A DNA stretch of 25,054 nt from a virus, in IMG/VR virus record IMGVR_UViG_3300006334_000060, positions 1 through 25,054 of that record; one strand, 5' to 3'. Below, one piece after another: positions 9,427 through 20,819 of this stretch; within the stretch, counting starts at the first letter, position 1, and every line of letters starts with the position of its first letter. A program made the translations under genes and the position numbers. A model generated the notes under the pieces. That model saw only the letters and a list, made by a program, of their open reading frames with translations, was not told where the DNA came from and searched no databases.

Positions 9427-9450
9427 CTTTATTCCCAAATCACTTATAAT
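9423..9450 (+). promoter_or_regulatory. Sigma70-type promoter with perfect -10
   Basis: TTGACT (9423-9428, 5 of 6) is followed by a 16-base spacer and TATAAT (9445-9450, 6 of 6). It is the best sigma70-type match seen in the window. Its -35 overlaps the stop codon of the preceding gene, and its last -10 base is the first base of a perfect late promoter. Confidence 0.75.
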
Positions 9451-9457
9451 ATAAATA
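9450..9457 (+). promoter_or_regulatory. T4-type late promoter TATAAATA
   Basis: An exact match to the T4 late promoter consensus, recognised in T4 by gp55-bound host polymerase with gp33 and the gp45 clamp. Initiation would fall near 9463-9465, about 22 bases before the ATG at 9486, with GGAG (9474-9477) as ribosome site. A TATAAATT at 9462-9469 lies just downstream. It overlaps the sigma70-type promoter, so the following operon could be read both early and late. Confidence 0.8.
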
Positions 9458-9485: not shown

Positions 9486-10586
9486 ATGAAAGGTTTTACT
9501 AATTTCGTATCTGAAGCATACGATATTATTCCCAAGTCTGAGGGAGAAATTGACGAATTAGACATTCCTCATGATAAGGAAAAACTAAAAGCGTTATTCA
9601 CCGATGTTGTGACACAAACTGGTGTTGCAGACCCCATTGCCATATCTAAAAGTACCAATGAAAAAGGTATAAAAATCATGCGTTCAGTCGCAGATGACTT
9701 AGACCTTGCAAAACTCTCTGGAACATATGGTTTCAAAGTTTCTGCTGGTAATGGTTCAAGGGGCGGCACTGGAACTAAATCTATGGGATTTGGTTTTGAA
9801 GGACAAGTTTTCAAAGACCTCAATACCTATATTGAAGAAGGTGTTGATTCACCAAACTTCAAGTATCCAGACTTCATGAAAGACTTTCACTCACAGGTGT
9901 TATCAAAACATTCTGAAATCACTGTAAGTTTAGATGGTGGTGCGAATACTCGTAGACCACTTGTGTTTACAGATATTGGCGCTCTCATCAAAGGTAGAGA
10001 ACTCAACATTGGTCAGTATGTAACAGATATTACTGTAAACGGTGATGGTAATCCATATTACCTCTCACTGAAATACGGTAGCACTGTTACATTTTTCAAT
10101 GCTGGTGTCGCAACTATTTTTACAGAAGACCAGTTTAAAGCAGGAAAAATCACAAACAGAAATGCAAAACAACTTCTTGGTATGCTTGGTATTGATGAAA
10201 AAAGATTCATCGAAACCTTTGAAGGATACGATAAAAAGACTGCAAGTAGAAGAGCTCCAAAAGATGTTGTAGATGTAACCAGAAAAGTAAACATGAGAGC
10301 ATTGTTACAGTTGTTAGTAACTGGTGTTGGTATGGGTTATTGGATGGTACACAAAAAGGGTAAGGGTGTTGAACTCTATGAGATGAATCGTAGAAAGATG
10401 ATGGATGCTGCAAAAGTAAGTAGTGTCAAGGTTCAATATCCAAAGAAGGGAACTGCAAAGAGAATTGATATCGAAGTGGTGACCAAAATGTATATTTTCA
10501 AAATCAACATTCGTAACAAACAGGGTGGATTGTATCCGTCACATATTATGTGTGATTACAAACCAAATCCAGCATATGCAAAATGA
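9486..10586 (+). CDS. Hypothetical protein with capsid-targeting-like leader, possibly nuclease-like
   Basis: A 366-residue protein. ATG 9486 follows GGAG by 8 bases. Residues 1-11, MKGFTNFVSEA, line up position by position with the T4 internal-protein capsid-targeting leader MKTYQEFIAE followed by Ala; V-S-E would be a gp21-type cleavage site. The rest is not recognised with confidence. Residues 98-113 (KSMGFGFEGQVFKDLN), Asp181 in DITVNGDG and Ser194-x-Lys196 in YYLSLKYG could be an E...D...(S)xK nuclease core, which is a weak hint only. The C-terminal half holds KQLLGMLGIDEKRF and VNMRALLQLLVTG. It is the first gene of the late operon and overlaps the next by 4 bases (ATGA). Confidence 0.88.
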   Translation: MKGFTNFVSEAYDIIPKSEGEIDELDIPHDKEKLKALFTDVVTQTGVADPIAISKSTNEKGIKIMRSVADDLDLAKLSGTYGFKVSAGNGSRGGTGTKSMGFGFEGQVFKDLNTYIEEGVDSPNFKYPDFMKDFHSQVLSKHSEITVSLDGGANTRRPLVFTDIGALIKGRELNIGQYVTDITVNGDGNPYYLSLKYGSTVTFFNAGVATIFTEDQFKAGKITNRNAKQLLGMLGIDEKRFIETFEGYDKKTASRRAPKDVVDVTRKVNMRALLQLLVTGVGMGYWMVHKKGKGVELYEMNRRKMMDAAKVSSVKVQYPKKGTAKRIDIEVVTKMYIFKINIRNKQGGLYPSHIMCDYKPNPAYAK

Positions 10587-11815
10587 TTAGTTTGATGGAA
10601 AATAAGGCAGGAAAGAATCTGCACCTAGAACATATCGAAGATGAGATACTTAACTTTGGTGTGCCTGGTGGTCGTGCTGCAATCAACTTCATGCGTTCAC
10701 TAAGAGATATGTTCTCTGGTGCAAGTCGTAGTTCAGTAAACATGACTGTGAAGTGGGATGGCGCTCCTGCAATATTTGCTGGTATTGACCCAGAAGATAA
10801 TACGTTTTTTGTTGCAAAGAAATCTGTGTTTAACGTAGAACCAAAACTCTACAAGACGGAGGCAGAAATAGATGATGATTTATCTGGAACACTTAATTCT
10901 AAATTTAAAATCGCACTTGCAGAATTTTCTAAGTTGGGTATCACAGGGGTACTACAAGGTGACCTCATGTTTACAGACGATGTTGAAAAAACAACCATTG
11001 ACGGCACAAAGTATTATACTTTTCAGCCTAATACTATTGTATATGCTGTTCCACAAGATAGTGGTCTTGGTAAAGTAATCAACAGTGCAAAGATTGGTGT
11101 CGTATGGCACACAACATATACTGGTTCTGCACTGCAAGATATGAAAGCATCATTCGGTGCAAACATCAGTAAACTGAAAAAGACATCCACAGTATGGATG
11201 GATGATGCAACATACAAAGATGCATCTGGTACTGCAACATTTACATCAACTGAAAATGCAGAAGTAACTGGTCACTTGTCAAATGCTGGTAAATCATTCC
11301 ATCAAATTAACTCTGCAAAACTATCTAAGTTCCTTAGATTACAGAACTCACTGACAGGTAAACTGGTTGGTGCATCACTCAAGACATATAACAACTCAAA
11401 GGTTCGTAAGGGTGAAGCAATCAAGAACCCAAAACAACACGCTGCTGGATATATTACTTGGGTTGAAAATCATTTTGCAAAAGAGGTTGACAAGGTAAAA
11501 ACTGAGAAAAGTAAAGATGTTCTAAGAACAAAAGGTAGAGAATACGCAAGAGAATTTAAGAAAGATTTAACAAACTTAGAAGCGGTTATTGCGTTCCAAT
11601 CACATTTGGTAAATGCAAAGATGGGGATTGTAAAAAAACTAAATAGTGTTAAAGGTTTAACTGATACTTTTATTAAGACTAGTAATGGATTTAAAGTGAC
11701 AAACCCAGAGGGTTATGTTGCAATTGACAGAGTATCAGGCGATGCAGTAAAACTTGTTGACAGAATGGAATTTAGTTTTAATAACTTTACTGCAATAAAG
11801 GCATGGGATAAATGA
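10583..11815 (+). CDS. Conserved marine-phage protein with ligase-like (nucleotidyltransferase) motifs
   Basis: A 410-residue protein starting in an ATGA overlap (ATG 10595 is an alternative). It resembles a family common in T4-like marine phages and usually left unnamed. Motifs in ligase order can be read: motif I KWDG (Lys57-Gly60, in VKWDGAPAIF), a DGEL-like QGDLMF (125-130), a motif IIIa-like FQPNTIVYAV (147-156), motif IV-like PEGYVAID (375-382) and motif V-like AVKLVD (388-393). KxDG with a later EGxV and KL is the signature of covalent nucleotidyltransferases (DNA and RNA ligases, capping enzymes). The I-to-IV distance is longer than usual, so an insert (about 180-350) is needed. Function is inferred, not known. 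No targeting leader is seen here, unlike its neighbours. Confidence 0.9.
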   Translation: MISLMENKAGKNLHLEHIEDEILNFGVPGGRAAINFMRSLRDMFSGASRSSVNMTVKWDGAPAIFAGIDPEDNTFFVAKKSVFNVEPKLYKTEAEIDDDLSGTLNSKFKIALAEFSKLGITGVLQGDLMFTDDVEKTTIDGTKYYTFQPNTIVYAVPQDSGLGKVINSAKIGVVWHTTYTGSALQDMKASFGANISKLKKTSTVWMDDATYKDASGTATFTSTENAEVTGHLSNAGKSFHQINSAKLSKFLRLQNSLTGKLVGASLKTYNNSKVRKGEAIKNPKQHAAGYITWVENHFAKEVDKVKTEKSKDVLRTKGREYAREFKKDLTNLEAVIAFQSHLVNAKMGIVKKLNSVKGLTDTFIKTSNGFKVTNPEGYVAIDRVSGDAVKLVDRMEFSFNNFTAIKAWDK

Positions 11816-12228
11816 GAACTTTTAAAGAATTATTTGAAGACGAAATAGACGAAAAACAAACGCCTGCTCAAATTATGCAGAATCGCAGAAAAATGAGTAG
11901 ACGTATGAAAATTCTTGCGAAGAAATCATCCACTAAGATGAAGAAGAAGAGAGCAAGAGTAAGACGCCGTGACCCAGATGCGTTACAGGCGATTGCAAAA
12001 CGTCAAGCAAAAATGATGGTTATCAAACGTAGTTTAGGCCCAGAGGTCAACTACAAAGAACTCCCCATGCAAAAACGTATTCAGATTGACCAGAAGATTG
12101 TTGCCAAAAAACGTAAAGTGATTGACAAGATATCACAGAAGATTCTTAGGAAACTAAAAGCTGGTGAGGGTGAAAGAATTAAAAAGAATAAGGCTGCAAT
12201 GGCAGGCATGGACGCAGTGGGAGATTGA
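11812..12228 (+). CDS. Highly basic protein with acidic capsid-targeting-like leader
   Basis: A 138-residue protein coupled by ATGA overlap to the previous gene. Residues 1-14, MRTFKELFEDEIDE, are acidic after the MRTFKE start and end in I-D-E, a gp21-type (L/I)-x-E site. Everything after it is strongly basic: NRRKMSRRMKILAKK, TKMKKKRARVRRR, then long Lys-rich helices. The pattern of a removable acidic leader on a basic body is that of T4 internal head proteins, which are packaged with DNA. I infer a DNA-binding internal capsid protein. No enzyme motif is present. A ribosomal-protein-like look is due to composition only. Confidence 0.86.
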   Translation: MRTFKELFEDEIDEKQTPAQIMQNRRKMSRRMKILAKKSSTKMKKKRARVRRRDPDALQAIAKRQAKMMVIKRSLGPEVNYKELPMQKRIQIDQKIVAKKRKVIDKISQKILRKLKAGEGERIKKNKAAMAGMDAVGD

Positions 12229-12229
12229 T

Positions 12230-14953
12230 ATGAAAACTTTTAAAGAAGCAAGAGGCGATACCGCTGTATTCACATTTGGTAGATTTAATCCGCCCACAAC
12301 TGGTCACGAAAAACTTATAGACGCACTTGGTAGAGAGCAGGGTAAGAACCCAGGCGCTCCTATGTATGTGTATCCATCTCATTCCCAGAACCCAAAGAAA
12401 GACCCACTTCCTCATGGAAGAAAAGTCGCATACATGAAGAAGATGTTTCCAAAGTACAAAAGAAACATTACAGTCAGTCGTGCAAGAAATGTGTTCGATA
12501 TCGCAGTTGAACTGCATAACAAAGGTCACAAGGCAATTGTCATGGTTGTTGGTTCAGATAGGGTGGATGAATTTGCAAACCTATTAGACAAGTATAATGG
12601 TGTAGAGGGTAGACACGGTTTCTATGGATTCGATGATATTAAGGTAGTATCTGCTGGAGAACGTGACCCAGACGCAGAGGGTGTAACAGGAATGTCTGCA
12701 TCTAAAATGCGTGCCGCTGCAACTGCAAATGACCTTGACCAGTTTAAACTTGGTCTTCCAAAAGGATTTGCAGATGGAGAAAAACTGTTTAATGATGTTC
12801 GTAAGTTTATGGGCGTTAAAGAAGAATTCAATCTTACAATGGAAGAACTAAATCGTGACCTTTATATTCGTGGAGAGATTTGGAATGTCGGTGATGTTGT
12901 AAAAACAACAGATGGTGATGAGGGTACAATCATTCGCAAAGGCACAAACTATGTTGTGTTTGAGGACTTGAGAAGAGTGTGGTTGCATAATCTTGAAGAG
13001 GTTAGAAAAACAAAACAAGATAAAGATGTTGAGGACAGAGAAGGTACACAACCAGCAAAGTATTATGCAAAAGGTGCTGGTGGCAAAACTATGAAAAAGT
13101 CTACCAAGCAATCTAGGGCAAGACACTTTGAAAAAGGTGCGAAGATGGATGATGATAATCCTGCCGCATATAAACCAGCGCCTGGCGATAAAGGTGCAAA
13201 AACCAAACTGTCCAAGTACACCAAAAAATATAGACAGATGTATGGTGAGACTGAGGAAAGTCTTTGGGCAAACATTCATAAGAAGAGAGAAAGAATCAAA
13301 AGGGGTTCTGGTGAGAAGATGAGAAAAGTTGGTGACAAAGGCGCTCCAACACCAGACCAGATGAAACGTGCAAAGGGTGAGTCTGTCACAGAAGAAATGA
13401 AGTGTCCGCCTGCAACCCAAGACGTAAAGATTAATACGACAAACAGAGATGCAACAATCAAGAACTTCAACTATGGGCCACTGAATGTTGACGAACCAGG
13501 CGATTACTGGAAAGATATTGCAAAGTACTGGAAGACAACTGAAGAGGCAGCAAAGAAGTCAGTATGTAACAATTGTGTTGCGTTTGATGTATCACCAAGA
13601 ATGTTAGAGTGTATGCCAGGCGAAACATCTGATGATGATGGTCGTTTGGGATATTGTTGGATGCACCACTTCAAGTGTCACTCTGCAAGAGCGTGTCACA
13701 CTTGGGCAAAGGGTGGGCCAATCACTGAAGATGAAAAATCATATGATTGGCAAAAACGTGCAAAGATGGATGAGAGAAAACTGACAGATGCAGAAAAGAA
13801 GAAATTAGTAAGTTTAGAAAAAGATGTGTCAAAGAAAGACTTTATTGACAGATACGGTAAAGAAGAAGGTGAATCAATCTATTATGCAACTTTGACAAAA
13901 ATGGCAAAGAAACACGCAGAAGAGATACACGAAATGTCAATAGGTAAAATAATTCGTGATAAGATTTACAATATGACACATCCAAAAAAGATGGATAATC
14001 TTGTAAAAGCGTATGCAGATGCAGTTGCATCAGATACCAAGGGAAGACATGGAAACAGTTATCATGCTGGTGAGGTAGTCAGAAGACATGGTGCTGAAAG
14101 ACAAGGTGTTGACGTAAGACAACTTATGGGTTATATAAACTCACTTGTTAAGAAAGGTGACATACCAGCATCATTGAAAGCACAGGATGAGATTGATGAA
14201 GAATTCTTGGATGAAAAGATTGCTGGTCTTGTAAAGAAGTCAGATAAGTCTGGTGTACCATATGGTATTCTTAAAAAGGTTTACGATAGAGGTATGGCGG
14301 CATGGAGAACTGGACACAGGCCAGGCACCACACCACAGCAGTGGGCCTTTGCCAGAGTCAATTCATTCTTGACAGGTGGTGGTGCAAGAAAGTCTGATGC
14401 AGACTTGTGGTCAAAAGCAAAAGGTGCAAAGAAGAAAAAGAAAGAGTCTTATGAGATTGGTAAAGATTACGGTGACCACGCTCGTAAGATAACGCCTGGA
14501 CAACAAGTAACTAAAGAGTCAATAGAAGAATGGTATCTTAGTGAGAGTGTAAGAGATAAATATGAACAGAGATATGGTGACGAGTGGTTAAGTAAATTAA
14601 CCAAAACCTACCATGCAATGCTAGAAAAGGTTGAACCCTGTTGTGACGATTGTGCAGAACAATTTGACCATATCGTAGAGGATGCAGAGTATCAAGGTAG
14701 AAAAGTAAAACTGAATGACCCCATTCGCACAAGCGAAAACCCTAACAAGAAGTTTAAGGTTTATGTGAAGAATGAAAAGGGAAAGGTCGTAGTGGTTCGT
14801 TTCGGTGACCCAAATATGGCAATCAATCGTGATGACCCAGAAAGAAGAAAGTCATTTCGTGCGAGACACAACTGCGATGACCCAGGCCCGAAAACGAAGG
14901 CAAGATATTGGAGTTGTTTCCAATGGCGTGCTGGTGCAAAAGTCGATAACTAA
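12230..14953 (+). CDS. 907-residue polyprotein: nucleotidyltransferase plus several marine-phage virion modules
   Basis: ATG 12230 (GGGAG at 12219-12223) gives MKTFKEARGD, the leader-like start; an upstream in-frame ATG at 12164 lies inside the preceding gene. Modules in order: a cytidylyltransferase/NMN-adenylyltransferase-like domain (11-190) with FGRFNPPTTGH (T/HxGH at 23-26) and GMSASKMR (154-161, the ISSTxxR position); a KOW/SH3-like segment (214-257); a basic KSTKQSRARHF...APGDKGAKTKLSKYTKKYRQMYGE module (273-339); a Cys/His-rich probable zinc domain (Cys446, 449, 460, 476, 483, 489); an RYGKEEGESIYYATLTKMAKK module (541-561); a GVPYGILKKVYDRG module (675-735); and a C-terminal YQGRKVKLND...FRARHNCDDPGP module (820-907). 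ITE, IHE, LDE, LSE and IVE tripeptides sit near module borders. Inference: packaged and cleaved by prohead protease. Confidence 0.92.
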   Translation: MKTFKEARGDTAVFTFGRFNPPTTGHEKLIDALGREQGKNPGAPMYVYPSHSQNPKKDPLPHGRKVAYMKKMFPKYKRNITVSRARNVFDIAVELHNKGHKAIVMVVGSDRVDEFANLLDKYNGVEGRHGFYGFDDIKVVSAGERDPDAEGVTGMSASKMRAAATANDLDQFKLGLPKGFADGEKLFNDVRKFMGVKEEFNLTMEELNRDLYIRGEIWNVGDVVKTTDGDEGTIIRKGTNYVVFEDLRRVWLHNLEEVRKTKQDKDVEDREGTQPAKYYAKGAGGKTMKKSTKQSRARHFEKGAKMDDDNPAAYKPAPGDKGAKTKLSKYTKKYRQMYGETEESLWANIHKKRERIKRGSGEKMRKVGDKGAPTPDQMKRAKGESVTEEMKCPPATQDVKINTTNRDATIKNFNYGPLNVDEPGDYWKDIAKYWKTTEEAAKKSVCNNCVAFDVSPRMLECMPGETSDDDGRLGYCWMHHFKCHSARACHTWAKGGPITEDEKSYDWQKRAKMDERKLTDAEKKKLVSLEKDVSKKDFIDRYGKEEGESIYYATLTKMAKKHAEEIHEMSIGKIIRDKIYNMTHPKKMDNLVKAYADAVASDTKGRHGNSYHAGEVVRRHGAERQGVDVRQLMGYINSLVKKGDIPASLKAQDEIDEEFLDEKIAGLVKKSDKSGVPYGILKKVYDRGMAAWRTGHRPGTTPQQWAFARVNSFLTGGGARKSDADLWSKAKGAKKKKKESYEIGKDYGDHARKITPGQQVTKESIEEWYLSESVRDKYEQRYGDEWLSKLTKTYHAMLEKVEPCCDDCAEQFDHIVEDAEYQGRKVKLNDPIRTSENPNKKFKVYVKNEKGKVVVVRFGDPNMAINRDDPERRKSFRARHNCDDPGPKTKARYWSCFQWRAGAKVDN

Positions 14954-14965
14954 AGGAAGATAAAA

Positions 14966-16423
14966 ATGAGATATGGAAAAAGCATGAGTGAAGCCCTTGC
15001 AGAAATTCGTGAGGGGTTCTCCAAAAAAGAAATCAAGATGGCAATCGGTGTTGCATCTGACCCACGTTATAAACAGGGTAATTACTCTGGTGCGGTAAGA
15101 GCAATCGAAAAAATTAAAAAGGGATTGTCAACACACCCACAGGTTGCTGCTGTTCTAAAAAGACAGAACGAGGAGATATTTGAAAAAGTCAAGTGTCCAG
15201 AATGTAATGGCGAAGGTTGTGACCATTGTGAGGGAAGAGGATATCATACCGAAGCACTTGACAAAGAGGATGAACCTTTTGTAAAGGACTTGATTAAAAA
15301 ACTAAGAAAAGGTTCTGCAACTCACGGTAAACAGGCAGATGACTTGGAGAAGGCAGTCAAGGAAGAAACTGAACTTGATGAAGTGAAGACTACTCATGTA
15401 GTTATTGATACTGCTGATGGTGACAAGGTTGTCGGTACTGCATCTTCTGAAAAGGTTGCAAAGGAAATTATCACAACTGCACAACTTCCACCTATTAAAA
15501 TCAAAGATAAGAAGACTTTGAAGGTTGTTATGATGAAGAAACCTGTCAGTGATAAGAAGGCATCACAGATGATTGGTTATCCTTTGAAAGAGGAAGTTGA
15601 ACTTGATGAGAGTGTCAAGGCATCAACTGCTTATGACTTTGACCGATTAATTAAAGATGGTGGGCTTGATAAAAGAGATTTCCAAAAGGCAAAAAACTTA
15701 TACACCCAGAATAAGTTGATGGATTTAAGAAAATTTATCTATAACTTAGATACCTCTCCACTAGAAGCAATCATGGATGTCATTGCAAAAAATGACCCAA
15801 AGGCATTTATGAAGATGTATCCAAAATCCAAGAAGGGTGAGTATATGTCTAGTATCGCTTACGCACACAAAGAAGAAGTTGAACTTGATGAAAGAAAGTT
15901 TGAAGCTGGTAAGTCTGCTTCTGGTTACGATATATTCCACAAAGACTTTTCATCTGCAATGCAACACGCAACTGCATTTGCAAAGAAAAAAGGACAACCA
16001 ATTAAGAAAGATGAGATTGATAATAAAGTTGCAACAGGCCCAAGAAAACCAAGCCCAGGCAAAGAAAACTCATACACTCTTGAAACCGAAAAAGGTAAGA
16101 GGTGGTCAGTTCAAGTGTATAACATGGGTAGTAAATTTGAACTGAATATGTACTTAACATCATCTCATGTGCCTGAAGGTGATACGCTTGATGAAGCAAA
16201 AGAAGTTTTGTCAAGATTTAAAGATGATAAACTTAAAAAGAGTATCATGAATCTTGCAACACAAAAAGGACTAAAGGTTAAGGAAATGGGAGACAAACTT
16301 GAAGTCTCTGGTAATGCCAGAAAGGTTATGGACTTAACCCTTGCAGTTCAAAAACATGATGTAAAAGTTGAACATAACATGATGTCAGCGTATACTGCTG
16401 CTATAACTAAAGGAGTAAAATAA
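14966..16423 (+). CDS. 485-residue polyprotein with repeated ELDE linkers and a zinc motif
   Basis: ATG 14966 follows AAGGA (14953-14957). Residues 1-17 (MRYGKSMSEALAEIREG) contain I-R-E, a possible leader cut. A helical module follows (FSKKEIKMAIGVASDPRYK...), then a DnaJ-like zinc motif CPECNGEGCDHCEGRG (77-92). From there the protein is a string of small alpha/beta modules separated by near-identical acidic linkers: KEETELDE (132-139), KEEVELDE (208-215), KEEVELDE (302-309) and EGDTLDE (404-410). Each ends L-D-E, matching the gp21 (L/I)-x-E rule. Modules between linkers are about 70-100 residues and unrelated by eye (THVVIDTADGDKVVG; AYDFDRLIKDGGLDKRDF; SGYDIFHKDFSSAMQHA; a final KH-like alpha/beta module with RFKDDKLKKSIMNLA). 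I recognise no enzyme. Inference: internal capsid polyprotein. The next ATG overlaps its stop by one base. Confidence 0.92.
   Translation: MRYGKSMSEALAEIREGFSKKEIKMAIGVASDPRYKQGNYSGAVRAIEKIKKGLSTHPQVAAVLKRQNEEIFEKVKCPECNGEGCDHCEGRGYHTEALDKEDEPFVKDLIKKLRKGSATHGKQADDLEKAVKEETELDEVKTTHVVIDTADGDKVVGTASSEKVAKEIITTAQLPPIKIKDKKTLKVVMMKKPVSDKKASQMIGYPLKEEVELDESVKASTAYDFDRLIKDGGLDKRDFQKAKNLYTQNKLMDLRKFIYNLDTSPLEAIMDVIAKNDPKAFMKMYPKSKKGEYMSSIAYAHKEEVELDERKFEAGKSASGYDIFHKDFSSAMQHATAFAKKKGQPIKKDEIDNKVATGPRKPSPGKENSYTLETEKGKRWSVQVYNMGSKFELNMYLTSSHVPEGDTLDEAKEVLSRFKDDKLKKSIMNLATQKGLKVKEMGDKLEVSGNARKVMDLTLAVQKHDVKVEHNMMSAYTAAITKGVK
15365..15891 (+). repeat. Dispersed in-frame linker repeat encoding E-(V/T)-ELDE
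   Basis: The 17-mer GAAGTTGAACTTGATGA occurs exactly at 15593-15609 and 15875-15891, and with two changes at 15365-15381 (GAAACTGAACTTGATGA). All copies are in the same reading frame. Weaker relatives are CTTGATGAAG near 16189 and AAACTTGATGAGAA near 16658 in the next gene. The spacings are 228 and 282 bases, multiples of three. Identity at the DNA level as well as protein suggests recent duplication or linker shuffling rather than convergence. Confidence 0.8.
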
Positions 16424-17280
16424 TGTCAAAATATTTTGATACAAAACCTGGCAGTCTTGAAGAAGCCGTATCCGCTGCTCAACAGGCTGCAATTGCTATC
16501 TCCAAAAAGGAGAGAGGTGAGAAACCAAAAGATAAAAAAGATGAAGGTAATGCATTTGGTGCTGCCTTAATGGCGGCAAAGGAAAAGGGTGAAAAAACCT
16601 TTACTGTTGCTGGTAAAAAATATGATGTAAAGACTGAACAAGAAATCAAGGAAGAAAAACTTGATGAGAAGGTTGAGTATGTTGAGTACAAATTCAAAAA
16701 CAAGAATGATGCAATGGCAGCAAAGAAGATGCTTGATGCAGTTCAGTTAATGAGTTTCGATATCAACGATGACAACATCTCTGGTGGTGAACTCATGGTT
16801 GATGCTGGTTCAAAGGATATGACCAAGTATCATAAAGAAATCATGAAGAAGTTTAAACCAAAGGTAATGAAAACTGAAACCAACAAGAACGACAAGTCTG
16901 ATGACGGTGACGGTCTTGATGCGGTTCAACCAGACGCTGTTAAGAAGAAGTTCAAAGACCGTAAGGACAAGGACATTGATAACGATGGTGACGTAGATGA
17001 TTCAGATAAGTTCTTGCACAAAAGACGTAAGGCAATCTCAAAGTCAATGGGTGAGTCACTTATGTCTGTTGCAGATTCCGTTAGACAAATGTGGGATGAA
17101 GCTGCAAAGAAATCTGAGTCTCAAGATGTGTTGAATGATAAAGATGGTGATGGTATGGATGATGACCAGAAACCAGAAAAAGCGAAAGCAAAGAAAATGA
17201 CTGATACTGGTAAACCAGTAACACCGATTGAGACATCACCAAAGATGCCTAAAACAAAAAATGAGAAGAACAAAGTCTAG
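16423..17280 (+). CDS. 285-residue acidic/basic protein with EF-hand-like loops and LDE linker
   Basis: The ATG overlaps the previous stop by one base, with AAAGGAG at 16409-16415. The start MSKYFDTKPGSLEEAVSAAQ contains L-E-E (12-14), a possible leader cut. KEEKLDEKVEY (77-87) repeats the linker of the previous polyprotein. A small alpha/beta module follows (VEYVEYKFKNKNDAMAAKKML...MTKYHKEIM). The C-terminal half is low-complexity and charged, with two calcium-loop-like stretches: DIDNDGDVDDSD (184-195, full DxDxDG pattern) and DKDGDGMDDDQ (239-249). Such loops are seen in EF-hand and dockerin-like proteins; calcium binding is inferred only. Likely a virion or prohead protein of the same class as its neighbours. 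The last base of the stop is the first base of the next GTG start. Confidence 0.88.
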   Translation: MSKYFDTKPGSLEEAVSAAQQAAIAISKKERGEKPKDKKDEGNAFGAALMAAKEKGEKTFTVAGKKYDVKTEQEIKEEKLDEKVEYVEYKFKNKNDAMAAKKMLDAVQLMSFDINDDNISGGELMVDAGSKDMTKYHKEIMKKFKPKVMKTETNKNDKSDDGDGLDAVQPDAVKKKFKDRKDKDIDNDGDVDDSDKFLHKRRKAISKSMGESLMSVADSVRQMWDEAAKKSESQDVLNDKDGDGMDDDQKPEKAKAKKMTDTGKPVTPIETSPKMPKTKNEKNKV

Positions 17281-17807
17281 TGATACGGTTTGATGAAGTA
17301 TATAATTTGGTGGCAGAGGAGAACGAAGAACTTCCAACCATCTATTGCGATATGGATATGGTGCTCTGTAACTTCTTGAAAGGTGCAGAGGAAGTTCTTG
17401 GTGTTCCCTTTCCAAGAGCGGATAAAAGGGAGAAGTGGATAAAGATTTCCTCTACCAAAGACTTTTGGGTAAACCTTGAATGGATGATGGGTGCCCAAAG
17501 AATGTGGTCATTTATAAACAAGTATGATGCACACATTCTATCTGCATACTCAACCAAAGACCCAAACAGTCGTAAGGGAAAACTTGCATGGTTGAAGAAG
17601 AATGCGAAACTTACAAAAAAGTCTCGTATTCACTTAGTATTGAGGGCAGACAAACAAAAATTTGCAATGATAAACAACAAACCAAACCTGTTGATTGATG
17701 ATTATATTAAGAACATTCACGAATGGGAAGCAAAGGGTGGAGTTGGAATACATCATACAGACCCAACTACAACTCTCGCAGAATTGAAACGGTTAGGTTT
17801 TAAATAA
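17280..17807 (+). CDS. HAD-family 5'(3')-deoxyribonucleotidase-like protein
   Basis: A 175-residue protein starting with GTG 17280 in a TAGTG overlap. HAD motifs are present in order: motif I YCDMDMVLCNF (Asp24, Asp26), motif II-like LSAYSTKD (87-94), a motif III Lys around 125-127 (ADKQKF) and motif IV LLIDDYIKN (137-145, Asp140/141). The size and the DxDxV start fit the NT5C/deoxyribonucleotidase group, which dephosphorylates nucleoside monophosphates. The 20 residues before motif I, MIRFDEVYNLVAEENEE, are an extension resembling the leaders of upstream proteins (LVAE then E), so this enzyme might also be packaged. An alternative is an ordinary late nucleotide-scavenging enzyme. Confidence 0.88.
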   Translation: MIRFDEVYNLVAEENEELPTIYCDMDMVLCNFLKGAEEVLGVPFPRADKREKWIKISSTKDFWVNLEWMMGAQRMWSFINKYDAHILSAYSTKDPNSRKGKLAWLKKNAKLTKKSRIHLVLRADKQKFAMINNKPNLLIDDYIKNIHEWEAKGGVGIHHTDPTTTLAELKRLGFK

Positions 17808-17808
17808 C

Positions 17809-17816
17809 ATAAATAG
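17809..17816 (+). promoter_or_regulatory. T4-type late promoter, CATAAATA
   Basis: Seven of eight matches to TATAAATA, in the 46-base gap before a virion gene. Expected initiation near 17823 leaves a short leader with AGGAG (17841-17845) and ATG at 17854. The following bases GATGAG resemble the GAGG that follows the 9450 site only loosely. Confidence 0.7.
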
Positions 17817-17853: not shown

Positions 17854-19161
17854 ATGAGCTCATGGAGTATGAATGATGGTTCTGCACTGACAGGTACTAT
17901 GACATTCACCAATGGAAATGCCGCTGTTTCTGGTTCTGGTACGAACTTTGACCCAGAAGTAAAAGTGGGTGACATCATCATTTCCGCTGGTGGGGTCAAA
18001 CATAGAGTAAAAGCTGTTACGTCAGATACCGCACTAACACTAACTGAAAATTTCAGTGGTTCAACCGAAAATGGTGTTGCCGCCACGGTTACAAGACCAC
18101 CACTGAATTTTGCATCTGCAGCACCGCATATTGATAACAATGTGTTGGGTATCACCTCTGGTGAATCTTTGGGTGGTGTAGACAACATTACAAGTATCGG
18201 TGTCGGTAACACAACACTAGGTACTTACGAAAGAATTGGTGGTAACACATACCACACTTCAGCACCGACAGTAACAATTGCTGCACCAACAGCAAGAACA
18301 ATTACTCAAGCGAACATCAATGAAACAACAGATGTGTTTACTGTAACTGGTCATAATATGAGAACTGGTACAAAGTTAACTTATACATCAAATGGAACAA
18401 ATATTGTTCATAGTGGTGGAACTCTTGCAGATAGCACAGCAGTTTTTGTTATTAGAGTTGATGATAATACTTTTAAAATCGCATCTTCACTTTCAAATGC
18501 AAATGCTGGTACTGCATTAGACATTACAAATGATGGTAATGATAGTAACTCATTTGTAGGTGATACTGCAGCAGCAACTGCAACCATCTCTGGTGGTAAA
18601 GTAACTGGTTTCACAATCACTAACGTGGGTTCTGACTATCAGTCTGCACCTTCAGTTACAATTGCTGCCCCAAGTGGTACTGGAAATTTGAACTTAACAG
18701 ACAACACAGTATTAATTGTTGCTGATGATGAAATCGTTGTTCCTGCCGCATTCTATGCTGCTATCTCAACTGGTGAATCAGTGACATATGCACAAGGTGG
18801 TTCTGGTGCTCAAGCAGACCTTACAGATGGAACTGTCTACTACCTAATCAAATCTGGAACTGCAAACAAGATTAGTCTTGCAACAAGTGCCGCAAATGCA
18901 CTTGCTGGAACAAAGATTGACTTAACTGCTGTTGCATCTGGTGGTACTGCACACTCATTTGTTGGTGGAACTGCAACCGCAACCGCAACTCTTGGTCTTG
19001 GTGTAGACGGTGACGATAACAGAAGAGATATCGCACACGTTGGTTGGGTCAAGAAGACTGTAGGTACTGGTGGTCGTGCTGGTAGAATTCACTACGAAAC
19101 TCTAGTTGCCGCATCAAGTATGTCTGGTGATGCAGAGGATATCGCAACCCCAGACAGTTAA
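17854..19161 (+). CDS. Virion structural protein with internal repeats
   Basis: A 435-residue, Thr/Ser/Gly/Ala-rich, beta-strand protein with no Cys. Strong AGGAG and a late promoter precede it. Residues 1-130 start with an oligomeric-looking beta domain (GTMTFTNGNAAVSGSGTNF, VGDIIISAGG, HRVKAVTSDTALTLT). Two related modules follow at about 133-245 and 262-380. Each opens YxSAPxVTIAAP and ends (A/N)AGTxxDxT...(H/N)SFVGxTAxATAT. The C-terminal 40 residues (RRDIAHVGWVKKTVGTGGR) look like a conserved terminal element. This composition is typical of marine T4-like phage decoration or fibre-associated proteins detected in virions. The exact location in the particle is unknown. Confidence 0.9.
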   Translation: MSSWSMNDGSALTGTMTFTNGNAAVSGSGTNFDPEVKVGDIIISAGGVKHRVKAVTSDTALTLTENFSGSTENGVAATVTRPPLNFASAAPHIDNNVLGITSGESLGGVDNITSIGVGNTTLGTYERIGGNTYHTSAPTVTIAAPTARTITQANINETTDVFTVTGHNMRTGTKLTYTSNGTNIVHSGGTLADSTAVFVIRVDDNTFKIASSLSNANAGTALDITNDGNDSNSFVGDTAAATATISGGKVTGFTITNVGSDYQSAPSVTIAAPSGTGNLNLTDNTVLIVADDEIVVPAAFYAAISTGESVTYAQGGSGAQADLTDGTVYYLIKSGTANKISLATSAANALAGTKIDLTAVASGGTAHSFVGGTATATATLGLGVDGDDNRRDIAHVGWVKKTVGTGGRAGRIHYETLVAASSMSGDAEDIATPDS

Positions 19162-20235: not shown

Positions 20236-20415
20236 ATGGAAGTAGTAAGATATGGTGCTGGTGGAATGCCAATTGTCTCTAAAGAAGAGAAAAAGGTAGA
20301 ACCAGTAGAAAAGGTCGAAAAGACAAAAAAGAAATCAGAACCACTTCAAGAGATTCTTGAAGTCAATCCAAATGAAGATGATGGTTTTGATGAGGAACAT
20401 GGAGAAGATGAATGA
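20236..20415 (+). CDS. Short charged hypothetical protein (59 residues)
   Basis: A small gene with AAGGAG (20224-20229) 6 bases before ATG 20236, ending in an ATGA overlap with the next gene. The product starts MEVVRYGAGGMPIVSKEEKK, continues as a Lys/Glu/Val-rich linker, and ends strongly acidic (NEDDGFDEEHGEDE). Good ribosome site and coupling at both ends make it real despite its size. It is probably unfolded or an extended tail. No function recognised. Confidence 0.8.
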   Translation: MEVVRYGAGGMPIVSKEEKKVEPVEKVEKTKKKSEPLQEILEVNPNEDDGFDEEHGEDE

Positions 20416-20819
20416 AAACCTTTAAACAATATATGAAGGAAGCTCCTCATCCAGCAGACGGTGACAATCCTGTTGATGGTGACATGATGTTGGGTGACCT
20501 TACCAGTGATGCAGTAGTCGAAAGATTGAATGCATATGTTGGTGCGATTGCAGATAGAGAATATCTCAATCCAGAAAAAGCAGTTGCTGAGATGAGACAG
20601 AAACTTATGAGAGTTGGTATTCATTTTGGTGATGTTCAATTTACTGAGGAAAGTGGTGAGATTTCTGTTCCTCTAGTTCAGTATGGTGGCGCATTTGGTA
20701 AAAGTGGAGACACACCATATGATGAGTTTGATAACGAAGTCGAGAGTGGTCGTTCATTGAACTTTGTATATGAGAGAACAGGTGGGGGTACGCATAGAAT
20801 TCTAGCAAAGATTATGTAG
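20412..20819 (+). CDS. Conserved-looking protein with capsid-targeting-like leader
   Basis: A 135-residue protein beginning MKTFKQYMKEAPHP. The first 11 residues align with the T4 leader MKTYQEFIAE plus Ala, with M-K-E at the cleavage position (less ideal than L/I-x-E). A helical stretch (SDAVVERLNAYVGAIAD, PEKAVAEMRQKLMRVGI) is followed by strands (VQFTEESGEISVPLVQYGG) and an ending NFVYERTGGGTHRILAKIM. No enzyme motif seen. Coupled by ATGA to the 59-residue gene. Inference: late protein, possibly internal to the capsid. Confidence 0.85.
   Translation: MKTFKQYMKEAPHPADGDNPVDGDMMLGDLTSDAVVERLNAYVGAIADREYLNPEKAVAEMRQKLMRVGIHFGDVQFTEESGEISVPLVQYGGAFGKSGDTPYDEFDNEVESGRSLNFVYERTGGGTHRILAKIM

Follow-up and report, generated by a model that had tools for sequence, protein, structure and literature searches.

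The gene at positions 14966..16423 (+ strand) of the DNA analysed here, a 25,054-nt window comprising an IMG/VR record of a marine T4-like phage, raises the question of whether a single phage protein is built to be cut into several small ones inside the assembling head. Its 485-aa product contains KEETELDE ending at residue 139, KEEVELDE at 215 and 309, and EGDTLDE at 410 (LDE spacings of 76, 94 and 101 residues), in addition to IRE at residue 16, after the leader. These had been read in an original prediction as gp21-type prohead protease sites between separate modules, and each site then named (ELDE139, ELDE215, ELDE309, TLDE410, IRE16 and KEEKLDE82 of the next gene) is exact to the residue in the ORF translations. 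Four LDE triplets arise in 4e-5 of composition-matched shuffles, a figure that leaves the repeated KEE-x-E context uncounted. Judged from sequence comparisons, the protein is probably a prohead cargo polyprotein that would be cut at gp21-type sites, its pieces being kept in the head.

The N-terminal leader, MRYGKSMSEALAEIRE (14966..15013), ends with a predicted cut after E16 (first nucleotide after it, 15014); it is short, closes in an [LI]xE site followed by G and is not of the MKTFK.. type, the T4-type MKxF leader pattern giving no match to it. The module behind it is preceded by KEEVELDE in Melnitz, a complete OM43 phage of the Kyanoviridae with which the 25-kb window is syntenic, and by other [LIVM]xE sites elsewhere. 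Modules A (residues 17–70) and A2 (71–139, with a CxxC..CxxC stretch) occupy 15014..15382 up to the predicted site LDE139 (15374..15382) and have homologues in other architectures. Homologue search and AlphaFold2 delimit module B (residues 140–215; 15383..15610), which ends in the predicted site LDE215 (15602..15610), and module C (216–309; 15611..15892), which ends in the predicted site LDE309 (15884..15892). Module D (310–410; 15893..16195) is present in more than 20 other proteins and ends in the predicted site LDE410 (16187..16195), where D409 and E410 are invariant in 8 aligned relatives; module E and the C-terminal tail (411–485; 16196..16420), defined from the translation and homologue search, complete the chain. 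Pfam and PHROGs gave no assignment for the protein, and no Pfam domain rose above the cut-off. The stretch in module A2 (15188-15271, about residues 75–102) has the form CxxCxGxGCxxC, resembles a DnaJ-type zinc motif and is also found in cyanophage proteins, e.g. Syn9 gp186.

An AlphaFold2 model of the protein, computed from an alignment of window and fetched-contig sequences only (43 sequences), had a mean pLDDT of 78 and a pTM of 0.32, with the modules reaching pLDDT 85–97 (91–97 at residues 21–70) and values below 50 confined to residues 94–98, 136–139, 303–314, 400–406 and 466–470. The expectation that the linkers would lie between folded modules was thus borne out at low confidence values for three sites, 139 and 309 falling within stretches below 50 and 410 shortly C-terminal to one, whereas LDE215 is the least clear of the four, with a pLDDT that is moderately lowered (about 72–73) and not in the very-low-confidence range. 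Placement of the LDE segments inside folded domains, named beforehand as the outcome that would speak against the prediction, was not seen in this model. Fold searches of the whole model returned no significant match in the PDB and only weak matches in a viral library, one of them a DUF5824 protein.

Since related loci were fetched by the motif itself, motif counts within them are no evidence alone, and the evidence comes instead from a swap test in which module cores stripped of their joints were searched against all ORFs, run without gp20-23 homologues, and hits with related upstream sequence were discarded. Of the 886 distinct module starts implied in this way, 53% directly follow an [LIVMF]xE triplet (45% among targets that have no acidic linker), against 0–4% at distant offsets. 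Thirty-six module families have members behind an LDE linker as well as behind an N-terminal leader; the leader/module boundary bears [LIVMF]xE in 30 of these families (exactly placed in 25), and the remaining six have no site at that boundary. With Glu at P1, the P3 residue is hydrophobic in 68 of 74 cases (background 30%), although the P-value for this bias is a guide only because the instances are related. Leaders in this set are often like T4 capsid-targeting leaders, as in MKTFKQYLEE/KSPAWQRSAGKDPEGG against FVSEESLDE/KSPAWQRAAGKDPEGG, or MLTFKEYLEE/ATYKGKTVPLNKPMAG against EVEQEDLDE/AKYQGREVPLNKPMAG (slashes mark cuts or predicted cuts).

Module A, which starts GFSKKEIKMAIG in the window, illustrates the exchange: it stands after the leader in the window (AEIRE/GFSKKEIK) and in the middle of the next gene in Melnitz (KEEVELDE/GYSPKEIK). 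Of 17 distinct contexts, 13 have Glu at P1 and 14 have L, I, V or M at P3, with P2 varying (R, E, D, S, Q, T or N), and two of the four exceptions gain a site on a one-residue shift; the junctions include IRE/G in the window, LDE/G in Melnitz, and MDE/A, EMTE/A and EVRE/G elsewhere. In some relatives the alignment to the window protein stops at residue 139, and in others it begins only at 225.

The T4 substrates offer a direct comparison. IPII and IPIII start MKTYQEFIAE/A and IPI starts MKTFKEF; for targeting, the first 10 residues of IPIII are enough; the cuts in Alt fall at ITE6 and LTE619; and gp23, from which a 65-residue N-terminal region is removed, has FLTE/A at 65. The cytidylyltransferase/NMNAT genes adjoining the polyprotein gene encode the leaders MKSFLQFLKE/A in S-SCSM1 and MKNFSSFLTE/A in S-CREM2, MKKFSAFLSE/A in Syn9 and MKKFSEIIE/A in Melnitz. 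A separate protein of the window (20412..20819, +) begins MKTFKQYMKE/A, and this leader and MKSFLQFLKE are closely like T4 MKTYQEFIAE. The T4-type leader pattern is matched by 3 of the 85 window ORFs and 3 of the 440 Melnitz ORFs, most of them in the cassette to which the polyprotein gene belongs. As the window record ends upstream of gp21, we infer the protease from relatives, Melnitz gp21 being a Peptidase_S77 (1.5e-31).

This cassette begins at 9486..10586 (+) with a gene assigned to phrog_8438 (unknown function), whose product has the CTS-like leader MKGFTNFVSE/A. It further includes a gene at 11812..12228 (+) with the leader MRTFKELFEDEIDE/K, and a cytidylyltransferase/NMNAT-like multidomain gene at 12230..14953 (+; phrog_3041, 4.8e-90) with the leader MKTFKE/A, a DUF5824 module (Pfam 1.4e-18), a weak DUF5754-like module and an LDE at nt 14207-14215, immediately upstream of the DUF5824 module. 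Beyond the polyprotein gene lie the gene at 16423..17280 (+), whose KEEKLDE82 junction (predicted cut after nt 16668) is preserved in the fetched loci L001, L002, L003 and L005, and, at the cassette end, an NT5C-like nucleotidase gene at 17280..17807 (+; Pfam NT5C 6e-4, below the cut-off; phrog_2643, 7e-28).

At 9450..9457 (+), between the helicase region and the cassette and 27–36 bp upstream of its first gene, stands TATAAATA, a sequence known as the T4-type late promoter box. It is the only match in the 25-kb window and, with 1.33 chance matches expected, its position is the evidence. In Melnitz the same box stands 47 bp before the orthologous gene, the only one in the first 30 kb, and further boxes precede gp22 and gp23. 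The box also precedes the cassette in loci L004 (27–36 bp; its first cassette gene differs and begins MYTLRQYITE/A) and L006 (35 bp), and in S-CREM2 it lies 28 bp before the cytidylyltransferase gene; Syn9 and S-SCSM1 have no exact box at the cassette head. From this placement, the cassette with its polyprotein gene is probably expressed late, from the box upstream. An ATAAATA at 17809-17815, directly 3′ of the cassette and about 40 bp upstream of the gene at 17854, is a possible second late start.

Published proteomes place the neighbouring cytidylyltransferase in the virions of three cyanophages and proteins of adjacent genes in those of two. In S-SCSM1, SSCSM1_89 to 93, 95 and 97 are marked as virion proteins, a set that includes the NMNAT and the product of the next gene, SSCSM1_92, which bears KEEVELDE420 (PMC9602691). 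The virion proteome of S-CREM2 lists the cytidylyltransferase together with ORFs 155, 156 and 160, in a study whose authors could not exclude carry-over of abundant proteins (PMC10665884), and that of S-SM1 includes the orthologous cytidylyltransferase (PMC3037559).

The last 13 residues of the window protein (473–485; 16382..16420, +), MSAYTAAITKGVK, resemble the C-terminal tail of the scaffold protein gp22. With a position matrix built solely from 18 gp22 tails, this tail scores 19.2 bits (z 6.2), and the protein and its orthologues span 19.2–21.6 bits; among 4642 non-gp22 ORFs only they reach the scores of gp22 tails, the next ORF scoring 15.6. The gp22 resemblance is limited to these residues, the protein being absent from the gp20-23 homologues found by phmmer. 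The C-terminus of Melnitz gp22 reads MSAYMSAISKNVKRGKV; the Melnitz orthologue of the 485-aa protein is without a gp22-like tail and has another one (..RIAQLQLQIAKAQETINQLNAQEK), in common with L007. We infer that the gp22-like tail would bind coat or core.

This tail also speaks for the main rival of a cargo polyprotein, namely a degradable core protein in the manner of gp22, gp67 and gp68, which would be cut by gp21 at the LDE sites and whose pieces would leave the head without serving as cargo. T4 gp22, gp67 and gp68 share several [LI]xE sites with the window protein, the C-terminal tail is common to it and gp22, and multiply cut core proteins can be lost. In T4, however, the products are small peptides that exit the head, whereas the sites of the window protein separate folded, reused modules, which the model predicts confidently as domains. 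Many of these modules recur as single leader-bearing proteins like the T4 internal proteins, some polyproteins bear recognisable domains such as HicA, and the neighbour proteins were detected in relatives' mature virions. We consider a degradable core protein unlikely.

Less probable still is an uncut multidomain virion or DNA-binding protein in which KEEVELDE would supply flexible acidic linkers only. The linkers are indeed acidic, and three of four are of low confidence in the AlphaFold2 model, but a plain linker has no need of a Glu at P1 and a hydrophobic P3 that keep a set distance to the module. This pattern recurs behind N-terminal leaders, and P2 and the positions before P3 are free to vary. 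That the linkers are mainly recombination joints without a protease role is the least credible explanation, since in spite of extensive module shuffling the KEEVELDE-coding DNA is diverse (62 versions among 142 copies) and many swap boundaries have [LIVMF]xE alone, without the linker; shuffling and cleavage are in any case compatible, not exclusive.

The substrate of separate modules proposed in the original prediction, with its predicted cuts, is supported by the swap test, the AlphaFold2 model, the leaders, the late box, the gp22-like tail and the virion data for the locus in relatives, and the cargo polyprotein is best understood as the T4 internal-protein system in polyprotein form. The leader, probably together with the gp22-like tail, would put the polyprotein into the scaffold core of the assembling head, where an active gp21-type prohead protease would cut behind the Glu residues that close IRE16, LDE139, LDE215, LDE309 and LDE410. 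These cuts would take off the leader and divide the rest into about five small folded pieces within the head; these would remain with the DNA and may reach the next host, as the T4 internal proteins do. The acidic LDE linker would serve an inner module as the cleavable capsid-targeting leader serves a single-domain internal protein, and through this equivalence modules would be swappable between genes.

Proteins jointed in this way extend well beyond the window. The KEEVELDE-coding DNA pattern was found in at least 120 stretches of the viral collection (IMG/VR), and among the matches listed 118 lie in an ORF, 60 of them with two or more junctions in that ORF; 257 Gb of prokaryote genomes gave 48 stretches, with 29 in an ORF and three with at least two junctions. 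Once the variant EEVEQIDEL was added, the matches listed comprised 163 ORFs with two or more strict junctions in 143 loci, among which the median junction spacing is 80 aa and the most junctions in one protein are nine (1431 aa). A gp20-23 homologue was present in 23 of 142 IMG/VR stretches with polyproteins (median distance 1.45 kb), and T4-likeness is established for a minority of the IMG/VR stretches. The complete Melnitz genome has KEE..[LI]DE in just three genes, each of them a member of the orthologous cluster; the predicted joints of Melnitz include IDE191 of gene 20 (numbered from the annotated start) and LDE139 of gene 21.

The content of the chains varies. The module chain in one such case, P0005 of L053 (1936-6231, − strand; 1431 aa, LDE-jointed), includes a HicA-type mRNA interferase domain as one module (residues 75–125; Pfam HicA-type toxin, 2e-11). 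The same protein has an intein-like insertion at residues about 844–1090 that resembles the inteins of phi92-type DNA polymerases. An EF-hand-like module, LKGNQHKIDKNKNGKIDAHDF, recurs directly after the leader in many IMG/VR polyproteins (e.g. those of L096, L120, L142 and L167).

Several described systems share parts of this arrangement. T4 IPI, IPII, IPIII and Alt likewise have a short leader ending in [LI]xE, are cut after Glu and are packaged, but the internal proteins yield one mature protein per gene, whereas here many domains stand under one leader, each later domain with its own LDE site, and MRYGKSMSEALAEIRE is of a type other than the T4 internal-protein leaders. The ejection proteins of giant phages (phiKZ gp93, SPN3US gp53/gp54) receive several prohead-protease cuts after Glu and are packaged and ejected; those cuts, however, strip one long propeptide and do not divide a series of modules, and the SPN3US motif is AxE. 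The polyvalent proteins of phages and conjugative elements also unite many unrelated domains per chain, and their proposed fate is delivery along with DNA and division into units, but the splitting is credited to a zincin-like peptidase within the chain (Iyer et al. 2017, PMC5512222), whereas here the signal is a prohead protease motif, and no zincin-like peptidase domain was found in the 485-aa protein at the Pfam cut-off. A literature search limited to open-licence papers found no description of LDE-jointed prohead polyproteins.

The recurrence of such sites between shuffled modules in many other viral sequences suggests that LDE joints are a widespread, apparently undescribed means of loading many small proteins into the phage head. 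The broader proposition, to which we give an even chance, is that many T4-like and related sea and freshwater phages carry prohead-cut chains of up to 10 interchangeable modules under one targeting signal, to be injected as a combinatorial effector set. If true, such cargo could be found simply by looking for [LI]DE behind an acidic stretch, hundreds of small proteins that are candidates for packaging would gain exact boundaries, and a large group of multidomain proteins that lack annotation in aquatic phages would be explained. Tailed phages would then own a polyprotein strategy akin to the one used by RNA viruses, except that the cutting would take place in the capsid.
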